Virus record (IMG/VR): IMGVR_UViG_3300042924_000431
Span: 1-20,375 of that record
Length of the DNA: 20,375 nucleotides
Strand: one strand, 5' to 3'
DNA from: a virus
Made by a program: the position numbers and the translations under genes. This document shows, one piece after another, positions 4,602 to 20,375 of the stretch (its first letter is position 1; each line of letters opens with the position of its first letter). The notes beneath the pieces were generated by a model. The model saw only the letters and a program-made list of their open reading frames with translations, ran no database searches and was not told the DNA's origin.

Positions 4602-4862
4602 ATGGCTAAGTTCAGCAAAAAGATGGGCGGCAAGGAAGTCGGAGATGCCTCCGTCTATGCCGAGCCCCACACGATGAAGGGCGGCAAGGTTGCCCTGGGT
4701 AACGGCACTCAGGCGGAGCCGACTGCGGCCAACCGGGTGAACATGTCTGTGGGCAACATCACCCGCGACGGTTACAACCCCGCCCCCAAGACCTCGGGTA
4801 TTAAAACCCGTGGTAATGGTTGTGCCACCAAGGGAACGATGGCTCGCGGCCCAATGGCTTGA
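4602..4862 (+). CDS. Small basic protein with ATKGTMARGPMA tail
   Basis: An 86-residue protein. ATG 4602 follows the previous stop by one base; an in-frame start at 4461 is inside the preceding gene. The N-terminus is KFSKKMGGKEVGDASVYAEP. The last 22 residues (GIKTRGNGCATKG then TMARGPMA) are a tail I recognise on many small phage proteins, and its K-T-R-G and C-A-x-K-G elements echo the tail in the 1564-2536 genes. No catalytic residues are seen. It sits between connector genes, so a minor virion component or assembly factor is a fair guess. Confidence 0.68.
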   Translation: MAKFSKKMGGKEVGDASVYAEPHTMKGGKVALGNGTQAEPTAANRVNMSVGNITRDGYNPAPKTSGIKTRGNGCATKGTMARGPMA

Positions 4863-8769: not shown

Positions 8770-8991
8770 ATGGCTTTGGATGCACAACAGCAATTCCAAC
8801 TCGACTTGGAAAACGCCCGCCACGCCAATCAAATGGCAGCGCAGGCCAAGCAGGCAAAACTGGAGGCCGTGCGTATGGCTAAGGAAACCCTCGTCGAGAA
8901 CGCCCGCAGCAAGCCTGTGGACGCTCGTGATGTGACGGCGGCTGACATCACCGCTTTTGCTGCCGCCCTTGAGTCGTATGTAAACGGCTGA
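8770..8991 (+). CDS. Small alpha-helical phage protein at the head of the oxygenase cluster
   Basis: A 73-residue protein, almost all helix: residues 1-45 (QQQFQLDLENARHANQMAAQ, then K-Q-A-K-L-E-A-V-R-M-A-K-E-T-L) make a Gln/Ala-rich amphipathic coil. The end (S-K-P-V-D-A-R-D-V-T-A-A-D-I-T-A-F-A) is a conserved block found in this short family. AGGAG at 8759-8763 precedes ATG 8770. Its stop overlaps the next ATG (TGATG), coupling it to the first oxygenase gene. It could be a fibre-assembly helper, but that is only positional inference; the family has no known function. Confidence 0.7.
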   Translation: MALDAQQQFQLDLENARHANQMAAQAKQAKLEAVRMAKETLVENARSKPVDARDVTAADITAFAAALESYVNG

Positions 8992-9584
8992 TGGAAGGTT
9001 TTGCCTACTTCCCGGCTATCGTCTACCGAGATGAACGGCCCGACTTGGCTGAAAAGGTTCTGCCGACATGCATCCAATACTTGGATCAAGTTCGCAAGCC
9101 CGAGTGGCCGATGTCCCAGTCCGCCCATCTCGCGCACGATCCTGCCTTCAGGGAAGTGGCAGACTACCTTCTGCTGTCGGTGGTAGACCTGCTTCGTGGT
9201 CAGGGCTACGCGGTAGACAAGTACGACTTCTACCTTTCCGGCCTTTGGGCGCAGGAGGTCAATCGAGGGGCGGGCACCAACGTGCATGTCCACAAGAACA
9301 GCCAGATGTGCGGTTGGTTCTTCCTCGAAACCCCACAGGGTGGTGCGTACCCGATCTACCACGACACCCGCATGAACAAGTCCATGATCGAACTGGACTT
9401 TGTGCAGGACTCAGAGGTCAGCAACGCCACCAACATCATCCATTTCAACAACATGGTGCCTGGGACCGTGATGTTTGCCAACTCGTGGATGCAGCATCAA
9501 CTGACTGGCAGCAACGCCGACACCCCAACGCGATGCATTCACTTCATCGTGTCTCACAAGGAGCGCCCGTGCAGCATGTGCTGA
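8991..9584 (+). CDS. 2-oxoglutarate/Fe(II)-dependent oxygenase, TIGR02466/2OG-FeII_Oxy_5-like
   Basis: A 197-residue protein. Residues 97-106 (N-V-H-V-H-K-N-S-Q-M) followed by C-G-W-F-F-L-E-T-P-Q-G-G-A-Y and, later, V-P-G-T-V-M-F-A-N-S-W-M-Q-H-Q-L and T-R-C-I-H-F are the double-stranded beta-helix pattern of the putative oxygenase family I know as TIGR02466. The likely iron ligands are H99 or H101 and H169; R181 probably binds 2-oxoglutarate. Such enzymes couple oxidation of 2-oxoglutarate to hydroxylation of a protein or small molecule; the substrate is unknown here. The gene starts on a TGATG overlap and its 3' end overlaps the next gene. The C-terminus ends in C-S-M-C, an odd cysteine pair. 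Confidence 0.75.
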   Translation: MEGFAYFPAIVYRDERPDLAEKVLPTCIQYLDQVRKPEWPMSQSAHLAHDPAFREVADYLLLSVVDLLRGQGYAVDKYDFYLSGLWAQEVNRGAGTNVHVHKNSQMCGWFFLETPQGGAYPIYHDTRMNKSMIELDFVQDSEVSNATNIIHFNNMVPGTVMFANSWMQHQLTGSNADTPTRCIHFIVSHKERPCSMC

Positions 9585-10156
9585 CGCCTTACGCCACAGC
9601 CATCGAACCGTTTGTTTGGTGGGAAGGTGGTTTTACGGAGCAGGAACTGAACTGGCTCCAAGATCGGGCTCAGAAGGCTGATCAGCAGGCGCAGGTTGGC
9701 GGTGATCCGCAGGGTGCGGAATTGGCAAAGGTTCGCCGGTCGCAGGTATCGTGGCTGAACAAAAACCAAGATACCGCTTGGGTGTTTGAAAAGTTGGGGC
9801 ACATCGCTTCTTCTCTCAATGCCCAATACTTCCGGTTCGATCTGACGGGGTTTGGTGAACCGTTGCAGTTGACGAACTACGATCAATCAGAACAGGGGAT
9901 GTACGGATGGCATCAGGATTACGGCGGGAAAAACAGCCCCAGTCGGAAACTCAGTCTGGTACTTCAGTTGACCGACCCGAGCCAGTACGAGGGGGGAAAC
10001 CTCCAGGTTATGACTGGTGGTCAGCCACAAACCGTTCGCAAACAGCGGGGTCTGGTGGCAGCATTCCCTTCGTATGTACTCCACCAAGTAACCCCCGTGA
10101 CAAGCGGTAACCGTCAATCTCTTGTGGCGTGGATTTCTGGGCCTGCATTCCGATGA
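9569..10156 (+). CDS. 2-oxoglutarate/Fe(II)-dependent oxygenase, PKHD-type hydroxylase
   Basis: A 195-residue protein. H115-x-D117 (Y-G-W-H-Q-D-Y-G), distal H172 (S-Y-V-L-H-Q-V-T-P-V) and R182 (G-N-R-Q-S-L-V-A-W) are the full iron and 2-oxoglutarate binding set. R-K-L-S-L-V-L-Q-L-T-D and Y-E-G-G-N-L are typical of PKHD-type (prolyl hydroxylase-like) enzymes. The best start is GTG 9569, five bases after AAGGAG at 9558-9563, overlapping the previous gene by 16 bases. The in-frame ORF extends to 9068, but that part is a shadow of the upstream gene. It is the clearest enzyme of the trio. Substrate is unknown; the next-but-one gene, glycine-rich and with some Pro and Asn, is a candidate. Confidence 0.85.
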   Translation: MQHVLTPYATAIEPFVWWEGGFTEQELNWLQDRAQKADQQAQVGGDPQGAELAKVRRSQVSWLNKNQDTAWVFEKLGHIASSLNAQYFRFDLTGFGEPLQLTNYDQSEQGMYGWHQDYGGKNSPSRKLSLVLQLTDPSQYEGGNLQVMTGGQPQTVRKQRGLVAAFPSYVLHQVTPVTSGNRQSLVAWISGPAFR

Positions 10157-10749
10157 ACGCCGAATACAAAGACTTCATCGCCATCTACCGGGATGTATAC
10201 CCGGAAGGATACTGCCAACACCTGATCAAAGAGTTTGATCGTCTGGTGGAATCTGGGGCCGGTGCTAACAGGCAGCGCAGCGAAGGCGCACTCAAGCATG
10301 CCAAAAATGACATGCAACTTGGCCTTAATTTTGCAGTTCAAAACGTAACCATATTTAATGGCACGAAAGTGTCTGATATATTCTTTGACGGCCTGCAAAA
10401 ATGCTACGATGATTATACTCAACACTATTCTGTTTTGAAAAACGACAGGATTATTGGTACGGCTATGAAAATGCAACGTACCGATCCCGGTGGTGGTTAC
10501 CATATTTGGCACAGTGAGCAAGGTAATGGAGTCCACGCAGATCGAGTGTTGGTGTATATGCTGTACCTTAATACACTAACCCAAGAAGAGGCCGGGGAAA
10601 CTGAGTTTTTATATCAGCAACGCAGAGTGCAACCAACTGAAAACACAATGGTTCTTTGGCCTGCTGCGTTTACGCACACCCATCGAGGGAATACAGTGTT
10701 TGGTGAGCGCAGCAAGTACATCGTGACTGGTTGGTTTTACTACGAGTGA
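10153..10749 (+). CDS. 2-oxoglutarate/Fe(II)-dependent oxygenase, prolyl 4-hydroxylase-like, HxE variant
   Basis: A 198-residue protein. ATG 10153 overlaps the previous stop (ATGA). The C-terminal half shows the P4H-like barrel: G-G-G-Y-H-I-W-H-S-E-Q, then V-L-V-Y-M-L-Y-L-N, G-E-T-E-F-L-Y, W-P-A-A-F-T-H-T-H-R-G-N and S-K-Y-I-V-T-G-W-F. H120-x-E122 replaces the classical HxD; the distal ligand is H175 or H177 and K188 may bind 2-oxoglutarate. It resembles P4H-like proteins of cyanophages and SAR11 phages. Codon use is richer in A/T than in the two upstream oxygenase genes, so it may have a different origin. Substrate unknown; the glycine-rich protein starts seven bases downstream. Confidence 0.8.
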   Translation: MNAEYKDFIAIYRDVYPEGYCQHLIKEFDRLVESGAGANRQRSEGALKHAKNDMQLGLNFAVQNVTIFNGTKVSDIFFDGLQKCYDDYTQHYSVLKNDRIIGTAMKMQRTDPGGGYHIWHSEQGNGVHADRVLVYMLYLNTLTQEEAGETEFLYQQRRVQPTENTMVLWPAAFTHTHRGNTVFGERSKYIVTGWFYYE

Positions 10750-10756
10750 GGAAAAA

Positions 10757-11769
<1,013 letters not shown>

Positions 11770-11773
<4 letters not shown>

Positions 11774-12279
11774 AAGAAAGCAGCGCCACCAAAAGCATGT
11801 TAAAGAAGCAGCATGAGGCTTCTTTGCAAGCGACGCTTAACCGTGCAAGATCGGTGACTGTTGGCACTTGTTTTGGTGGGACAGTAGAAATATCTATGCG
11901 CGGAAACGATGGCGTCGTTCTGTGGAGTCCACTACAGCCCGTTGAAGCGATTGAGTTGATCCATCAATTGGCCGCAAGTGTTGGGTGCCACATTCACATT
12001 CAACCCCGTCGAGATTTTTCTAGTTGGCGAGATTGGAAACATTCGGAAGAAGAATTGGATCGCTATCGTGGCATGCAAAATCTTCCTGGCGTTGGGCATC
12101 CGCCACACGCGAATAAAACAATTGAGCAGCAAATAAAAGGTCAGGTACTTCCTGCGCCCGAGCAGCAGCCCGGACTTCAACCCGCCTTAATGGCAAGGAG
12201 TAATGAAAATGAGCAAACTCTGGCAACTTCAAAAACTGTCGGACGGAAGCGCGCTAAGCGAGCCGCAGCCGCTGCCTGA
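11770..12279 (+). CDS. Conserved phage protein of unknown function
   Basis: A 169-residue protein starting on an ATGA overlap with the glycine-rich gene; a GTG at 11758 is in frame but lies within that gene. The conserved core is V-T-V-G-T-C-F-G-G-T-V-E-I-S-M-R-G-N-D-G followed by W-S-P-L-Q-P-V-E-A-I-E-L-I-H-Q-L-A and G-C-H-I-H-I-Q-P-R-R-D-F-S-S-W-R-D-W. The H-I-H pair and the Cys residues might bind metal. The C-terminus is basic (GRKRAKRAAAAA) and overlaps the next gene by 71 bases in another frame. I know relatives next to fibre genes in environmental phages but no function. Confidence 0.7.
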
Positions 12280-12598
12280 AAACTGGGGGCCGATCTTCGG
12301 CCTTCACGGCTTCATCGACCAGATCGGTGATCTGTCGTGGTTGGGTGAGTCCTATAACGATCAGGGGTGGTTTGAGGTGGGCGATGCGCCTCCTGGGCCT
12401 GTTACTTCGTCCGCTGCCGAACTCGCATGGGATCGTGCCAAGAAGATGTTGGCTGAGTCTGATTGGTCGATGCTGCCTGATGTGCCGATGACGGCGGGCA
12501 ACAAGGCGCTGTGGATTGAGTATCGCCGTGCGCTGCGCGAGATTCGTCTTCAGGCAGGCTTCCCCGACAACATTCAGTGGCCGAAAGCCCCTGAGTGA
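12209..12598 (+). CDS. Phage tail assembly chaperone (Phage_tail_APC-like)
   Basis: A 129-residue protein. Residues 74-129 (W-D-R-A-K-K-M-L-A-E-S-D-W-S-M-L-P-D-V-P, then N-K-A-L-W-I-E-Y-R-R-A-L-R and Q-A-G-F-P-D-N-I-Q-W-P) match the tail-assembly chaperone domain that I know as PF16778. The N-terminal half (L-W-Q-L-Q-K-L near the start, G-W-F-E-V near residue 54) is an aromatic-rich domain. Such proteins help fibre or tip proteins fold and trimerise, and here the gene follows the glycine-rich tip gene. ATG 12209 has AAGGAG at 12195-12200 at ideal distance, while ATG 12203 is too close. The first 71 bases overlap the upstream gene. Confidence 0.8.
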   Translation: MSKLWQLQKLSDGSALSEPQPLPENWGPIFGLHGFIDQIGDLSWLGESYNDQGWFEVGDAPPGPVTSSAAELAWDRAKKMLAESDWSMLPDVPMTAGNKALWIEYRRALREIRLQAGFPDNIQWPKAPE

Positions 12599-17369: not shown

Positions 17370-20300
17370 ATGGCGCGACTGCTGTCCGAGCAAGAATTCC
17401 AGGATTCGTTCGATCAGAACGATCTGCTGAACATCGTCGGCGGAGGGACTACTCTTACCCCTACACCTACGCTCACCCCTACCGTTGCACCTACACCGGA
17501 CTACTCCGGCATCTTGACTGGGTATTATCGCGACATCTTGGGCCGTGCCCCGGATCAGGGTGGCTTTGACTTCTGGAACAACGCGCTTCAGTCAGGGAAC
17601 TACACGCCAGAATTTGTTAGGCAGCAGTTCCTTTCTTCACCAGAGTATCTTGCTCGGCAAACTCCTACGCCGACCGCCGCTGCACCGTTCAACTTCCGCG
17701 ACTACATGTACGCGGGCGGTGCAGATGACACCTTGGCAACTCAGCGCGGTCTTCAATACGCAGCGCAACAGGGATGGACCCCTGGTCAGACCGTATCGGA
17801 ATGGAACCAAGCCCTCGGCACCAACTTCACCCTGGATGACTACTACCGCGTGACGGGCACTCAGCCCCCTGCGGTTACTCCGACGCCGACTACTCCTACT
17901 CCGACGCCGACTACTCCTACTCCGACGCCGACTACTCCTACCCCGACGCCGACTACTCCTACTCCGACGCCGACTACTCCTACTCCGACGCCGGTTGATA
18001 CCACGTCGGTTGATACCACGCCGTCGCCAACTACTCCTACCCCAAGTCCGTCGCCTTCACCCACGCCGACACCTACGGCGGTTGCTCCCACGGCAACTAC
18101 CACTACGGCAAATACTCCGGGGGAGGCAGCGGCAGCATTTGCTACTAAGTTGGCAAATGTTTCTTCACCATACGACCTTACCGACGCTGATCTGAAGTTT
18201 GGCGATTACACCGTCAACTACGACGCGAGTTACGACACGTCCGGTAATTGGACTTACGGCAATATCACGGTTACTGCACCTGAAGCGCGTACTGACAAAA
18301 ATGTCCCTGCTCAGGCTCTATACGACTATGACAAAAACGGGAACCTTCTTGGGTTTCGTGTTGACTACAAAACCGGTAGCGATAGCGGCGTAGTAGTTAA
18401 TTACAACCTTGACGGTTCAATCAGAAGCCAAAATAAATACGACCGGTCTGAAGGTTGGCGTCCGTTTGTAGGGTCAGCCCTTGCACTCTTTGGGTCTGTT
18501 GCACTTCCCGGACTTGCAAATGTTCTGGGGGGCGGACTACTTGGAACCGCAGGGGCAGGTGCGATTCTTGGTGGCGCCGGTGCCGCCGTTGCTGGTGCTG
18601 AAGGCTCTGACATCATTCGCGCTGCCGCCACGGGCGCGGTTGGCGCTACCGCAGGGCAGTTGGCAAGTGGGCTTGCGGGTGATGTAAGCCAGTTGGTTGG
18701 CGGTGGCATCCCGGGCGATATTGCAGCAGGCTTCGTTCGCGGTGGCGTCCAAGCACTGCCCGGTGCAATTGCCACGGGCGATTTTTCCAATGTGTTCCAA
18801 CAAGCGGCGCTCGGGGGTATTACTTCTGGTGCTGCTTCCGCAATGTCGGGTGCACTACAAGGTTCTGGGTTTAACCCCAAACAAGTTCAAGGTGCGCTGA
18901 CAATTGCCACGCAGTTGGCGACTGGTAATGTTGATCCTCGTTCCCTCGCTTCTGCACTCGGTGATCTCAGTGGGCATCCTGATGCCGGTATCGCCGCTCG
19001 GGCGGTGCGGGTTGGTCTTGCCCTGAGTAATCTTGATTCTTCAAACCCGAGATCGTTGGCCGGTTTGATTGGTGAGATGGCCGGACTCGCCAAAGAGATT
19101 GACGACAAGGGTATCAAGCGGTTACCCGGCACTACCCAGGGTCCAACGACATCAGTTACTGGTGGGGATTTGCAGGCCACAGGGTTGAGCAACGTCGATG
19201 ATTTGCTCTCAACTCTGCCCGGCGTAACGGGGACGCTCCCATCAGTAACCGGTTCAGGCGCTGCTTCGGCAGATGAGATTGCAACTATCGTCGCCAACGC
19301 TACTGGGTTTGGTGCTACTACTCCAGGGTTGGAGATTGCACCCGAGACCGACGATGAACTTGAACGCTTCCTGGCCACGGGTCTGGAAGGTGCTACTACT
19401 CAGGTGGCAGGACTTCCGGCCCTTGCTATTCCTGCGGCCGTTGCCCGAGTCGCACCCGTAGCGGCTGAAGCCTTGATGCCTGCGGCCATGCGTTTTGCCG
19501 CAAATAACCCGCAGTTTGTAACCGCCCTTGCTCAGTCCTCTAATCCAATTGCACAGCGGTTGTTGGTGGGGTTGGCGTCAGCCGGGGTTATTACGCTGCC
19601 TGGAGATACCACAGCACCAGATACGGGTGATGAAACTCAACGCCTGTTTACTCGGTACCCCAGTCTTGGCAATATCTTACGCCTGCCGGGGGCTGTTACT
19701 GGGCCTCGCGTTACTGTCGGTCCTGATTTGCTCCCTGTCGGGGAACTTGATCTGGACGTATCAGACCTCTTGAACATTGTCGGGGGCGCTCTTCCAAAGC
19801 CTGCCGTAGTGCCTGATGACCAGCCCGAGCCGGGTACGGCACCTTCTCGCCCCACCACCCCCGTACCGGGTACTCCGGGTACTCCGGGTACTCCTGATCA
19901 ACCGGATCCTAATGCGCCACGCCCATCTGTAATTCCGGTGCCGGGTACACCGATTGATCCGACCACCCCCCAGATCAATCCTGATGATCCTCTCACGTGG
20001 CCTGACCGTGAAGTCTGGCCTAATTTTGATCCTAAGCGTCCTGAGACATGGCCGAAGGTCGTGCCTCCGCAGCCTACAGTAACACCGCCACGCCCGAGCC
20101 CCTCACCGAGCCCGAGCCCCTCACCGAGCCCGAGCCCCTCACCGAGCCCCTCGCCATCGCCATCGCCTTCACCTTCTCCTAGCCCGAGCCCCTCACCGAG
20201 CCCGAGCCCCTCGCCATCGCCGTCGCCATCTCCAAGCCCGAGCCCCTCACCGAGCCCGAGCCCTTCGCCATCGCCGTCGCCTTCACCTTCTCCTAGCCCG

Positions 20301-20375
20301 AGCCCCTCACCGAGCCCGAGCCCCTCGCCATCGCCGTCGCCATCTCCAAGCCCGAGCCCCTCACCGAGCCCGAGC
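17370..20375 (+). CDS. Giant multi-domain protein (DUF4214, TP- and SP-linkers, Gly/Ala-rich core), 3' end beyond the window
   Basis: An open frame of 1002 codons with no stop from ATG 17370 to the window end. Residues 46-96 (Y-Y-R-D-I-L-G-R-A-P-D, then F-D-F-W, F-L-S-S-P-E-Y-L-A-R) are a DUF4214 domain, common in surface-associated proteins. Residues 170-208 are T-P-T-P-T-P-T repeats. Residues 369-493 are Gly/Ala-rich and hydrophobic (A-L-A-L-F-G-S-V-A-L-P-G-L-A near the start), possibly membrane-inserting. From about 908 the chain is Ser-Pro repeats. D-L-L-N-I-V-G-G occurs at residues 18-25 and 799-806. It may be an ejected or host-contact virion protein; that is inference. A strong ribosome site is not evident. 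Confidence 0.8.
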   Translation, partial: MARLLSEQEFQDSFDQNDLLNIVGGGTTLTPTPTLTPTVAPTPDYSGILTGYYRDILGRAPDQGGFDFWNNALQSGNYTPEFVRQQFLSSPEYLARQTPTPTAAAPFNFRDYMYAGGADDTLATQRGLQYAAQQGWTPGQTVSEWNQALGTNFTLDDYYRVTGTQPPAVTPTPTTPTPTPTTPTPTPTTPTPTPTTPTPTPTTPTPTPVDTTSVDTTPSPTTPTPSPSPSPTPTPTAVAPTATTTTANTPGEAAAAFATKLANVSSPYDLTDADLKFGDYTVNYDASYDTSGNWTYGNITVTAPEARTDKNVPAQALYDYDKNGNLLGFRVDYKTGSDSGVVVNYNLDGSIRSQNKYDRSEGWRPFVGSALALFGSVALPGLANVLGGGLLGTAGAGAILGGAGAAVAGAEGSDIIRAAATGAVGATAGQLASGLAGDVSQLVGGGIPGDIAAGFVRGGVQALPGAIATGDFSNVFQQAALGGITSGAASAMSGALQGSGFNPKQVQGALTIATQLATGNVDPRSLASALGDLSGHPDAGIAARAVRVGLALSNLDSSNPRSLAGLIGEMAGLAKEIDDKGIKRLPGTTQGPTTSVTGGDLQATGLSNVDDLLSTLPGVTGTLPSVTGSGAASADEIATIVANATGFGATTPGLEIAPETDDELERFLATGLEGATTQVAGLPALAIPAAVARVAPVAAEALMPAAMRFAANNPQFVTALAQSSNPIAQRLLVGLASAGVITLPGDTTAPDTGDETQRLFTRYPSLGNILRLPGAVTGPRVTVGPDLLPVGELDLDVSDLLNIVGGALPKPAVVPDDQPEPGTAPSRPTTPVPGTPGTPGTPDQPDPNAPRPSVIPVPGTPIDPTTPQINPDDPLTWPDREVWPNFDPKRPETWPKVVPPQPTVTPPRPSPSPSPSPSPSPSPSPSPSPSPSPSPSPSPSPSPSPSPSPSPSPSPSPSPSPSPSPSPSPSPSPSPSPSPSPSPSPSPSPSPSPSPSPSPSPS
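17877..17993 (+). repeat. 21-base tandem repeat coding TPTPTTP
   Basis: Unit ACTCCGACGCCGACTACTCCT repeated five full times plus a 12-base partial, in the coding frame. One copy has CCC for CCT/CCG. The copies are nearly identical, so the array is young or kept uniform. It forms a Thr/Pro-rich linker after the DUF4214 region. (The unit as printed is 21 bases; its first 20 are ACTCCGACGCCGACTACTCC.). Confidence 0.95.
20091..20375 (+). repeat. Ser-Pro coding repeat array with 18-base and 114-base periods, open at the window edge
   Basis: The tract encodes alternating Pro-Ser for about 95 codons to the window end. Short units of about 18 bases (CCGAGCCCCTCACCGAGC) are nested in a longer period of 114 bases (38 codons): markers such as ACCTTCTCCT (20171 and 20285) and CATCTCCAAG (20227 and 20341) recur exactly 114 bases apart. 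The array may continue past the window. It makes an extended, stiff linker. Confidence 0.9.

Follow-up and report, generated by a model that had tools for sequence, protein, structure and literature searches.

Overlapping 2OG-Fe(II) oxygenase genes linked to a probable glycine-rich tail adhesin in aquatic phages

The window, which is the whole stretch of DNA analysed here and a single virus record of 20,375 bases, encodes three unlike Fe(II)/2-oxoglutarate (2OG) oxygenases, OX1, OX2 and OX3, directly ahead of a glycine-rich protein, GLY, that is probably a tail-fibre tip or adhesin (Table 1). We suggest, with a probability of about 0.6, that the enzymes hydroxylate this neighbouring adhesin and that the genes form a tail-adhesin finishing module. 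The broader proposal is that adhesin maturation by three to four dedicated 2OG oxygenases, which would hydroxylate a hypervariable Gly-rich receptor-binding protein, is widespread among phages; we regard it as evenly balanced. The catalysis, the substrate, the modified residue and the benefit of such a module are what we infer; gene order, conservation and linkage are described below.

Table 1. Features of the window in and around the oxygenase genes
Feature	Coordinates	Strand	Basis or remark
Fibre-like protein, 388 aa	7591..8757	+	Homologues in nearly all relatives, same place, widely varying score
Small conserved 73-aa protein	8770..8991	+	Found at same place in relatives
OX1, TIGR02466-like / 2OG-FeII_Oxy_5, H99-x-H101...H169...R181	8991..9584	+	PF13759, AlphaFold2 model
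OX2, PKHD/PiuC-like 2OG-Fe(II) oxygenase, H115-x-D117...H172...R182	9569..10156	+	PF13640, phrog_61
OX3, prolyl-4-hydroxylase-like 2OG-Fe(II) oxygenase, H120-x-E122...H175/H177...K188	10153..10749	+	PF13640, phrog_61
7-nt gap, OX3 to GLY	10750..10756	.	Site of fourth gene (FC type) in 26/61 relatives
GLY, Gly-rich (40% G), probable tail-fibre tip	10757..11773	+	Gly-rich ORF at same place in 61 loci
Conserved protein after GLY	11758..12279	+	In nearly all relatives
Tail fibre assembly chaperone-like protein, start approximate	12203..12598	+	PF16778 Phage_tail_APC, 57.5 bits; phrog_4912 tail fibre assembly

The 73-aa gene is translationally coupled to OX1 through TGATG, in which the upstream TGA and the ATG share their A. 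OX2 starts with GTG at 9569 and overlaps OX1 by 16 nt, and OX3 starts on ATGA at 10153. The preliminary description had proposed three distinct, overlapping oxygenase genes with these starts, and this is confirmed by the coordinates, by Pfam scores above cut-off and by the conservation of the starts. No family match was found for the 73-aa protein and no Pfam match for the protein that follows GLY. Elsewhere in the window, successive small proteins (1564-2536 and 4602-4862) share a C-terminal tag of the type KAADGCAKKGKTRGxMV, and a long open-ended protein (17370-20375) with a DUF4214 match and (TPTP)n repeats carries a Ser-Pro repeat run that reaches the contig end, where the assembly may have broken.

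All three enzymes score above the Pfam cut-off of 27 bits (OX1 against PF13759, 37.2; OX2 and OX3 against PF13640, 55.7 and 46.3, respectively). OX1 scores 37.8 bits against TIGR02466, below the NCBIfam cut-off of 62.5, and the best score of OX2 against the PKHD-type hydroxylase equivalogs NF003972-NF003975 is 68.3 bits, below every one of their cut-offs (143-399); the TIGR02466 and PKHD names therefore denote resemblance and not membership. By profile, OX1 aligns to the solved structures 3bvc and 2rg4. Its AlphaFold2 model (pLDDT 86), compared with the PDB by Foldseek, gave these two as the best folds, together with PHD2 and other 2OG oxygenases, with E below 1e-4. OX2 matches 3dkq and the PiuC structures by sequence; it has the domain and iron site of the PiuC and YbiX PKHD-type hydroxylases but differs from them in falling under the NCBIfam cut-offs and in its gene context. 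The profile match of OX3 is a prolyl 4-hydroxylase structure, 5c5t. Profile searches, which the preliminary description had recommended together with structure prediction, lead to 2OG oxygenase families, and the model of OX1 leads to the 2OG oxygenase fold. Profile-profile comparison of the four families (OX1, OX2, OX3 and the FC family described below) gave nothing usable because family diversity is low.

Conservation of the ligand residues was counted over 59-63 relatives per enzyme. H115, D117, H172 and R182 of OX2 (n = 62) and H120, E122, H175, H177 and K188 of OX3 (n = 63) are all invariant, so that, judged by sequence, both iron sites are complete in all relatives compared. In OX1, H99, H101 and H169 are invariant and position 181 is Arg in 50, Lys in 8 and another residue in 2 (58/60 Arg or Lys). 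The enzyme has no acidic ligand at the usual second place and presents a non-canonical three-His arrangement, H99-x-H101...H169. The aligned 3bvc and 2rg4 also carry the His-x-His, which therefore characterises that group; even so, OX1 is the one of the three for which catalysis is least certain on the basis of its residues. The signatures first proposed stand in that the residues are invariant or nearly so, with one correction: the 2OG-binding residue of OX3 is likely to be K188, the P4H-type lysine, and OX1 has His-x-His and not His-x-Asp/Glu. An incomplete iron site in two of the three enzymes, which had been named as evidence against the idea, was not found. In one relative, the OX1 gene falls into two ORFs (L046:340-933), by sequencing error or because the gene is broken.

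Scanning viral contigs with each of the three enzymes yielded 65 dereplicated loci. The order OX1-OX2-OX3 is kept wherever the contig is long enough, with the sole exception of L164, in which a distant OX1 is shifted downstream. The aligned start codon of OX2 is GTG, ATG or TTG in 61/62 relatives and that of OX3 is ATG or GTG in 58/63, so the overlaps are conserved as well. The enzymes are under strong purifying selection (median dN/dS: OX1 0.07, OX2 0.11, OX3 0.06), and the same neighbours recur around them: the fibre-like and 73-aa genes ahead of the oxygenases and, behind them, GLY, a conserved unknown and a tail-fibre assembly chaperone. The grouping is genuine and not due to chance. In L110, three Gly-rich genes take the place of one downstream of the trio. 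Among cellular genomes, no relatives of OX1 were found in the contigs searched, and OX2 has relatives in a few MAGs and strains only, which do not point to a host for the phage; an alphaproteobacterial MAG contig (L439:3-1746) carries three tandem OX2-type (PKHD-like) genes and no Gly-rich partner.

The relatives of GLY score 41-158 bits (self, 612 bits), and all contain 29-40% Gly. Conserved ends enclose a hypervariable middle of GXX repeats with G-N-P-G motifs, and invariant Gly columns fall at every third residue. The AlphaFold2 model of GLY (pLDDT 82, pTM 0.72) is mainly a non-helical coil between short terminal strands. Its best match in the PDB is the Pam3 fibre 7ypx (E 0.18, not significant); its matches among predicted viral proteins have low TM-scores and are tail fibre proteins and proteins with a Gly-rich domain. 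Gly_rich_2 (PF21722, gathering score 24.3 bits) gave no match for GLY of the window and three relatives, and the pelagiphage Gly-rich proteins do match it. GLY resembles the T-even gp38 and Pam3 gp24 tips in its Gly-rich repeats, conserved ends, variable middle, Pro before Gly and nearby chaperone. Compared with these tips, the GLY family is richer in Pro (8%) and its GXY runs are longer; neither by sequence nor by fold in the PDB was a significant match obtained. The layout of gp24-gp25 in Pam3 (PMC9608196) resembles that of the window, with its fibre-like gene, Gly-rich protein and chaperone two genes downstream of GLY.

Proline is favoured before glycine in 61/61 GLY proteins, with totals of 445 GxPG and 35 GPxG, where 170±12 and 171 would be expected with the Gly positions fixed. 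The collagens of phages, viruses and bacteria have no preference for Pro in the Y position, which has been attributed to a missing prolyl hydroxylase (PMC3368898). We considered the bias as proof or signature of prolyl hydroxylation and demoted it because the T-even gp38 controls share it: the gp38-type adhesins of nine T-even-like phages go in the same direction (GxPG 10, GPxG 0), which makes it a trait of Gly-rich adhesins and not diagnostic. What remains of the proline signal is the higher density of X-Pro-Gly in GLY than in gp38, which is suggestive. Unlike the GLY loci, the gp38 regions examined have no adjacent oxygenases, and these phages are not known to encode such enzymes. There is a parallel with the collagen prolyl 4-hydroxylase system, in that OX3 is P4H-like (5c5t) and GLY, with its Gly-X-Pro-Gly triplets, is a candidate substrate. 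GLY is unlike collagen in the shortness of its GXY runs (mean 5.7 triplets) and probably forms no long triple helix.

FC is a fourth overlapping gene, located between OX3 and GLY in 26/61 loci. The family has an invariant H-x-D-R...H-W-R motif, with H99-x-D101...H151 invariant in 12 members. All 12 members scanned match phrog_2954, which is named 'ferrochelatase' in PHROGs, and none of the members matches the ferrochelatase Pfam models at E<1. Weak matches to PF13532 (2OG-FeII_Oxy_2, AlkB-like) were obtained for 5/12 members, with a best E of 3.9e-05; the single score shown, 21.7 bits, is under the gathering score of 31.2. The invariant H-x-D...H and the weak AlkB-type matches suggest that FC is another 2OG oxygenase. 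The 'ferrochelatase' label of phrog_2954, which has been used for ecological inferences on iron and haem, would then be wrong, and published ecology relies on the co-occurrence of 2OG oxygenase and ferrochelatase (PMC9599517, PMC11561400).

The association with Gly-rich genes recurs in a separate clade. The cultured pelagiphages HTVC023P and HTVC033P have homologues of OX2, OX1 and FC side by side near Gly-rich genes, in an order (Gly-rich, OX2, OX1, FC) unlike that of the lake phages; HTVC023P also has a gene similar to the fibre-like gene of the window, with a Gly-rich neighbour. A scan with OX1 of HTVC033P alone retrieved loci in which OX2-OX1-FC directly follow Gly-rich genes. When only OX1 loci with 2.5 kb on both sides were evaluated, a Gly-rich ORF was present within 2.5 kb of OX1 in 37/37 loci of the lake clade and 15/15 of the pelagiphage clade (52/52); among tail-module relatives with a length of 9 kb or more, the background rate of such an ORF is 7/34 and 1/27. 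In relatives the trio is linked to tail genes, contrary to the absence of linkage that the preliminary description had named as a refutation. A Flavobacteriaceae MAG contig combines a Gly-rich gene with OX5 and OX2. HTVC008M (L170:6872-9745) lines up five oxygenase-type genes (OX2, two PhyH-like, OX3, FC), and a Gly-rich gene follows about 1 kb further on, on the opposite strand. HTVC023P-type pelagiphages have been described (PMC9599517) as carrying several nonorthologous 2OG oxygenases and a phrog_2954-type partner, and these include the OX1, OX2 and FC homologues. That account differs from ours: it regards the genes as auxiliary metabolic, as 'not adjacent' and as partnered by a ferrochelatase, whereas we find them overlapping and linked to Gly-rich tail genes, with an oxygenase-like partner.

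A general rule that an oxygenase implies a Gly-rich gene was ruled out by the HTVC027P-type pelagiphages. Their tail-module oxygenases (OX3-like, FC, weak OX2, OX5) mostly lack an accompanying Gly-rich gene, and both OX1 and a strong OX2 are absent; the clusters lie on the opposite strand of the tail region, beside tail collar genes. In L271, L273, L294, L322 and other loci of this type, the minus-strand clusters adjoin a tail stabilisation gene, their order is variable and there is no Gly-rich gene. Gly-rich genes with no oxygenase found nearby exist as well, as in L188, L204 and L219; freshwater relatives include such cases.

The presence of FC tracks the alleles of GLY and the downstream gene better than those of OX3. 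It changes 3 times on the tree of the GLY N-terminus, 6-7 times on those of the GLY middle and C-terminus and 5 times on that of the next gene, compared with 9-11 changes on the OX3 tree, 14-16 on OX1/OX2 and about 18 in shuffles. Plain distance does not explain this, since OX3 and GLY are equally close to FC, but block exchange downstream could. An association of FC with a C-terminal PGG (Fisher p 1e-10) was set aside, as it depends on phylogeny; well-supported branches hold only 3 independent pairs.

Three other explanations were weighed. The oxygenases may serve auxiliary metabolism, with host metabolites or iron/haem physiology as their target, and merely be located in the tail region, which is the published reading for HTVC023P-type pelagiphages (PMC9599517) and seasonal marine viruses (PMC11561400) and agrees with the HTVC027P set and with the bacterial homologues of OX2. 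We consider this unlikely: the linkage to a hypervariable tail gene is fixed despite different gene orders, FC follows Gly-rich alleles better than OX3 alleles, and the supposed ferrochelatase matches no ferrochelatase Pfam model and resembles a 2OG oxygenase. It is less likely still that the target is another virion protein (the fibre-like or the 73-aa protein) or a virion or host-surface sugar. Both genes are likewise conserved neighbours and the HTVC027P clusters do adjoin tail collar genes, but the pelagiphage enzymes come directly behind Gly-rich genes, and FC, placed between OX3 and GLY, follows the alleles of GLY. Co-inheritance alone, in which whole tail blocks are exchanged and enzyme and substrate are unrelated, would predict the FC signal common to the GLY N-terminus and the next gene; we give it very little weight, as the association persists though the order differs between lake and pelagiphage clades and OX3, for all its proximity, follows FC less well.

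Hydroxylation of GLY is thus the reading that we prefer. It is suggested by the retained order of trio and GLY in the 65 loci, by purifying selection on the enzymes next to a hypervariable GLY, by two clades with different order and by FC-GLY co-segregation. Against it are the HTVC027P set, the Gly-rich proteins without oxygenases, the non-significant fold match of GLY and the MAG with three OX2-type genes but no GLY. The dedicated tail-protein modification module of the preliminary description is supported in part, in that three families are conserved as a unit and tied to tail genes and a Gly-rich probable tip; the HTVC027P clusters and the proline bias common to gp38 count against taking it strictly.

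In the mechanism that we propose, the three oxygenases (four in some relatives) would be co-produced with the Gly-rich tip protein and its assembly chaperone and would hydroxylate side chains of the tip protein ahead of virion assembly. A candidate target of OX3 would be Pro in the repeated G-N-P-G / G-X-P-G triplets of GLY, and the likely effect a stiffer Gly-X-X scaffold or an altered receptor-contacting surface. Phage 2OG oxygenases, co-located ones included, are already known; a literature search, with most subscription journals outside its coverage, found no account that links Gly-rich tail proteins to a conserved module of several oxygenases. Few unexplained genes are as common in aquatic phages as those for 2OG oxygenases, which usually go under the name of auxiliary metabolic genes. 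The constant association, in two clades, with a hypervariable Gly-rich tail protein offers a concrete, testable substrate for them, and a finishing module predicts hydroxylated amino acids within phage receptor-binding proteins. If this is true, adhesin maturation has long been filed as auxiliary metabolism and 'ferrochelatase'.
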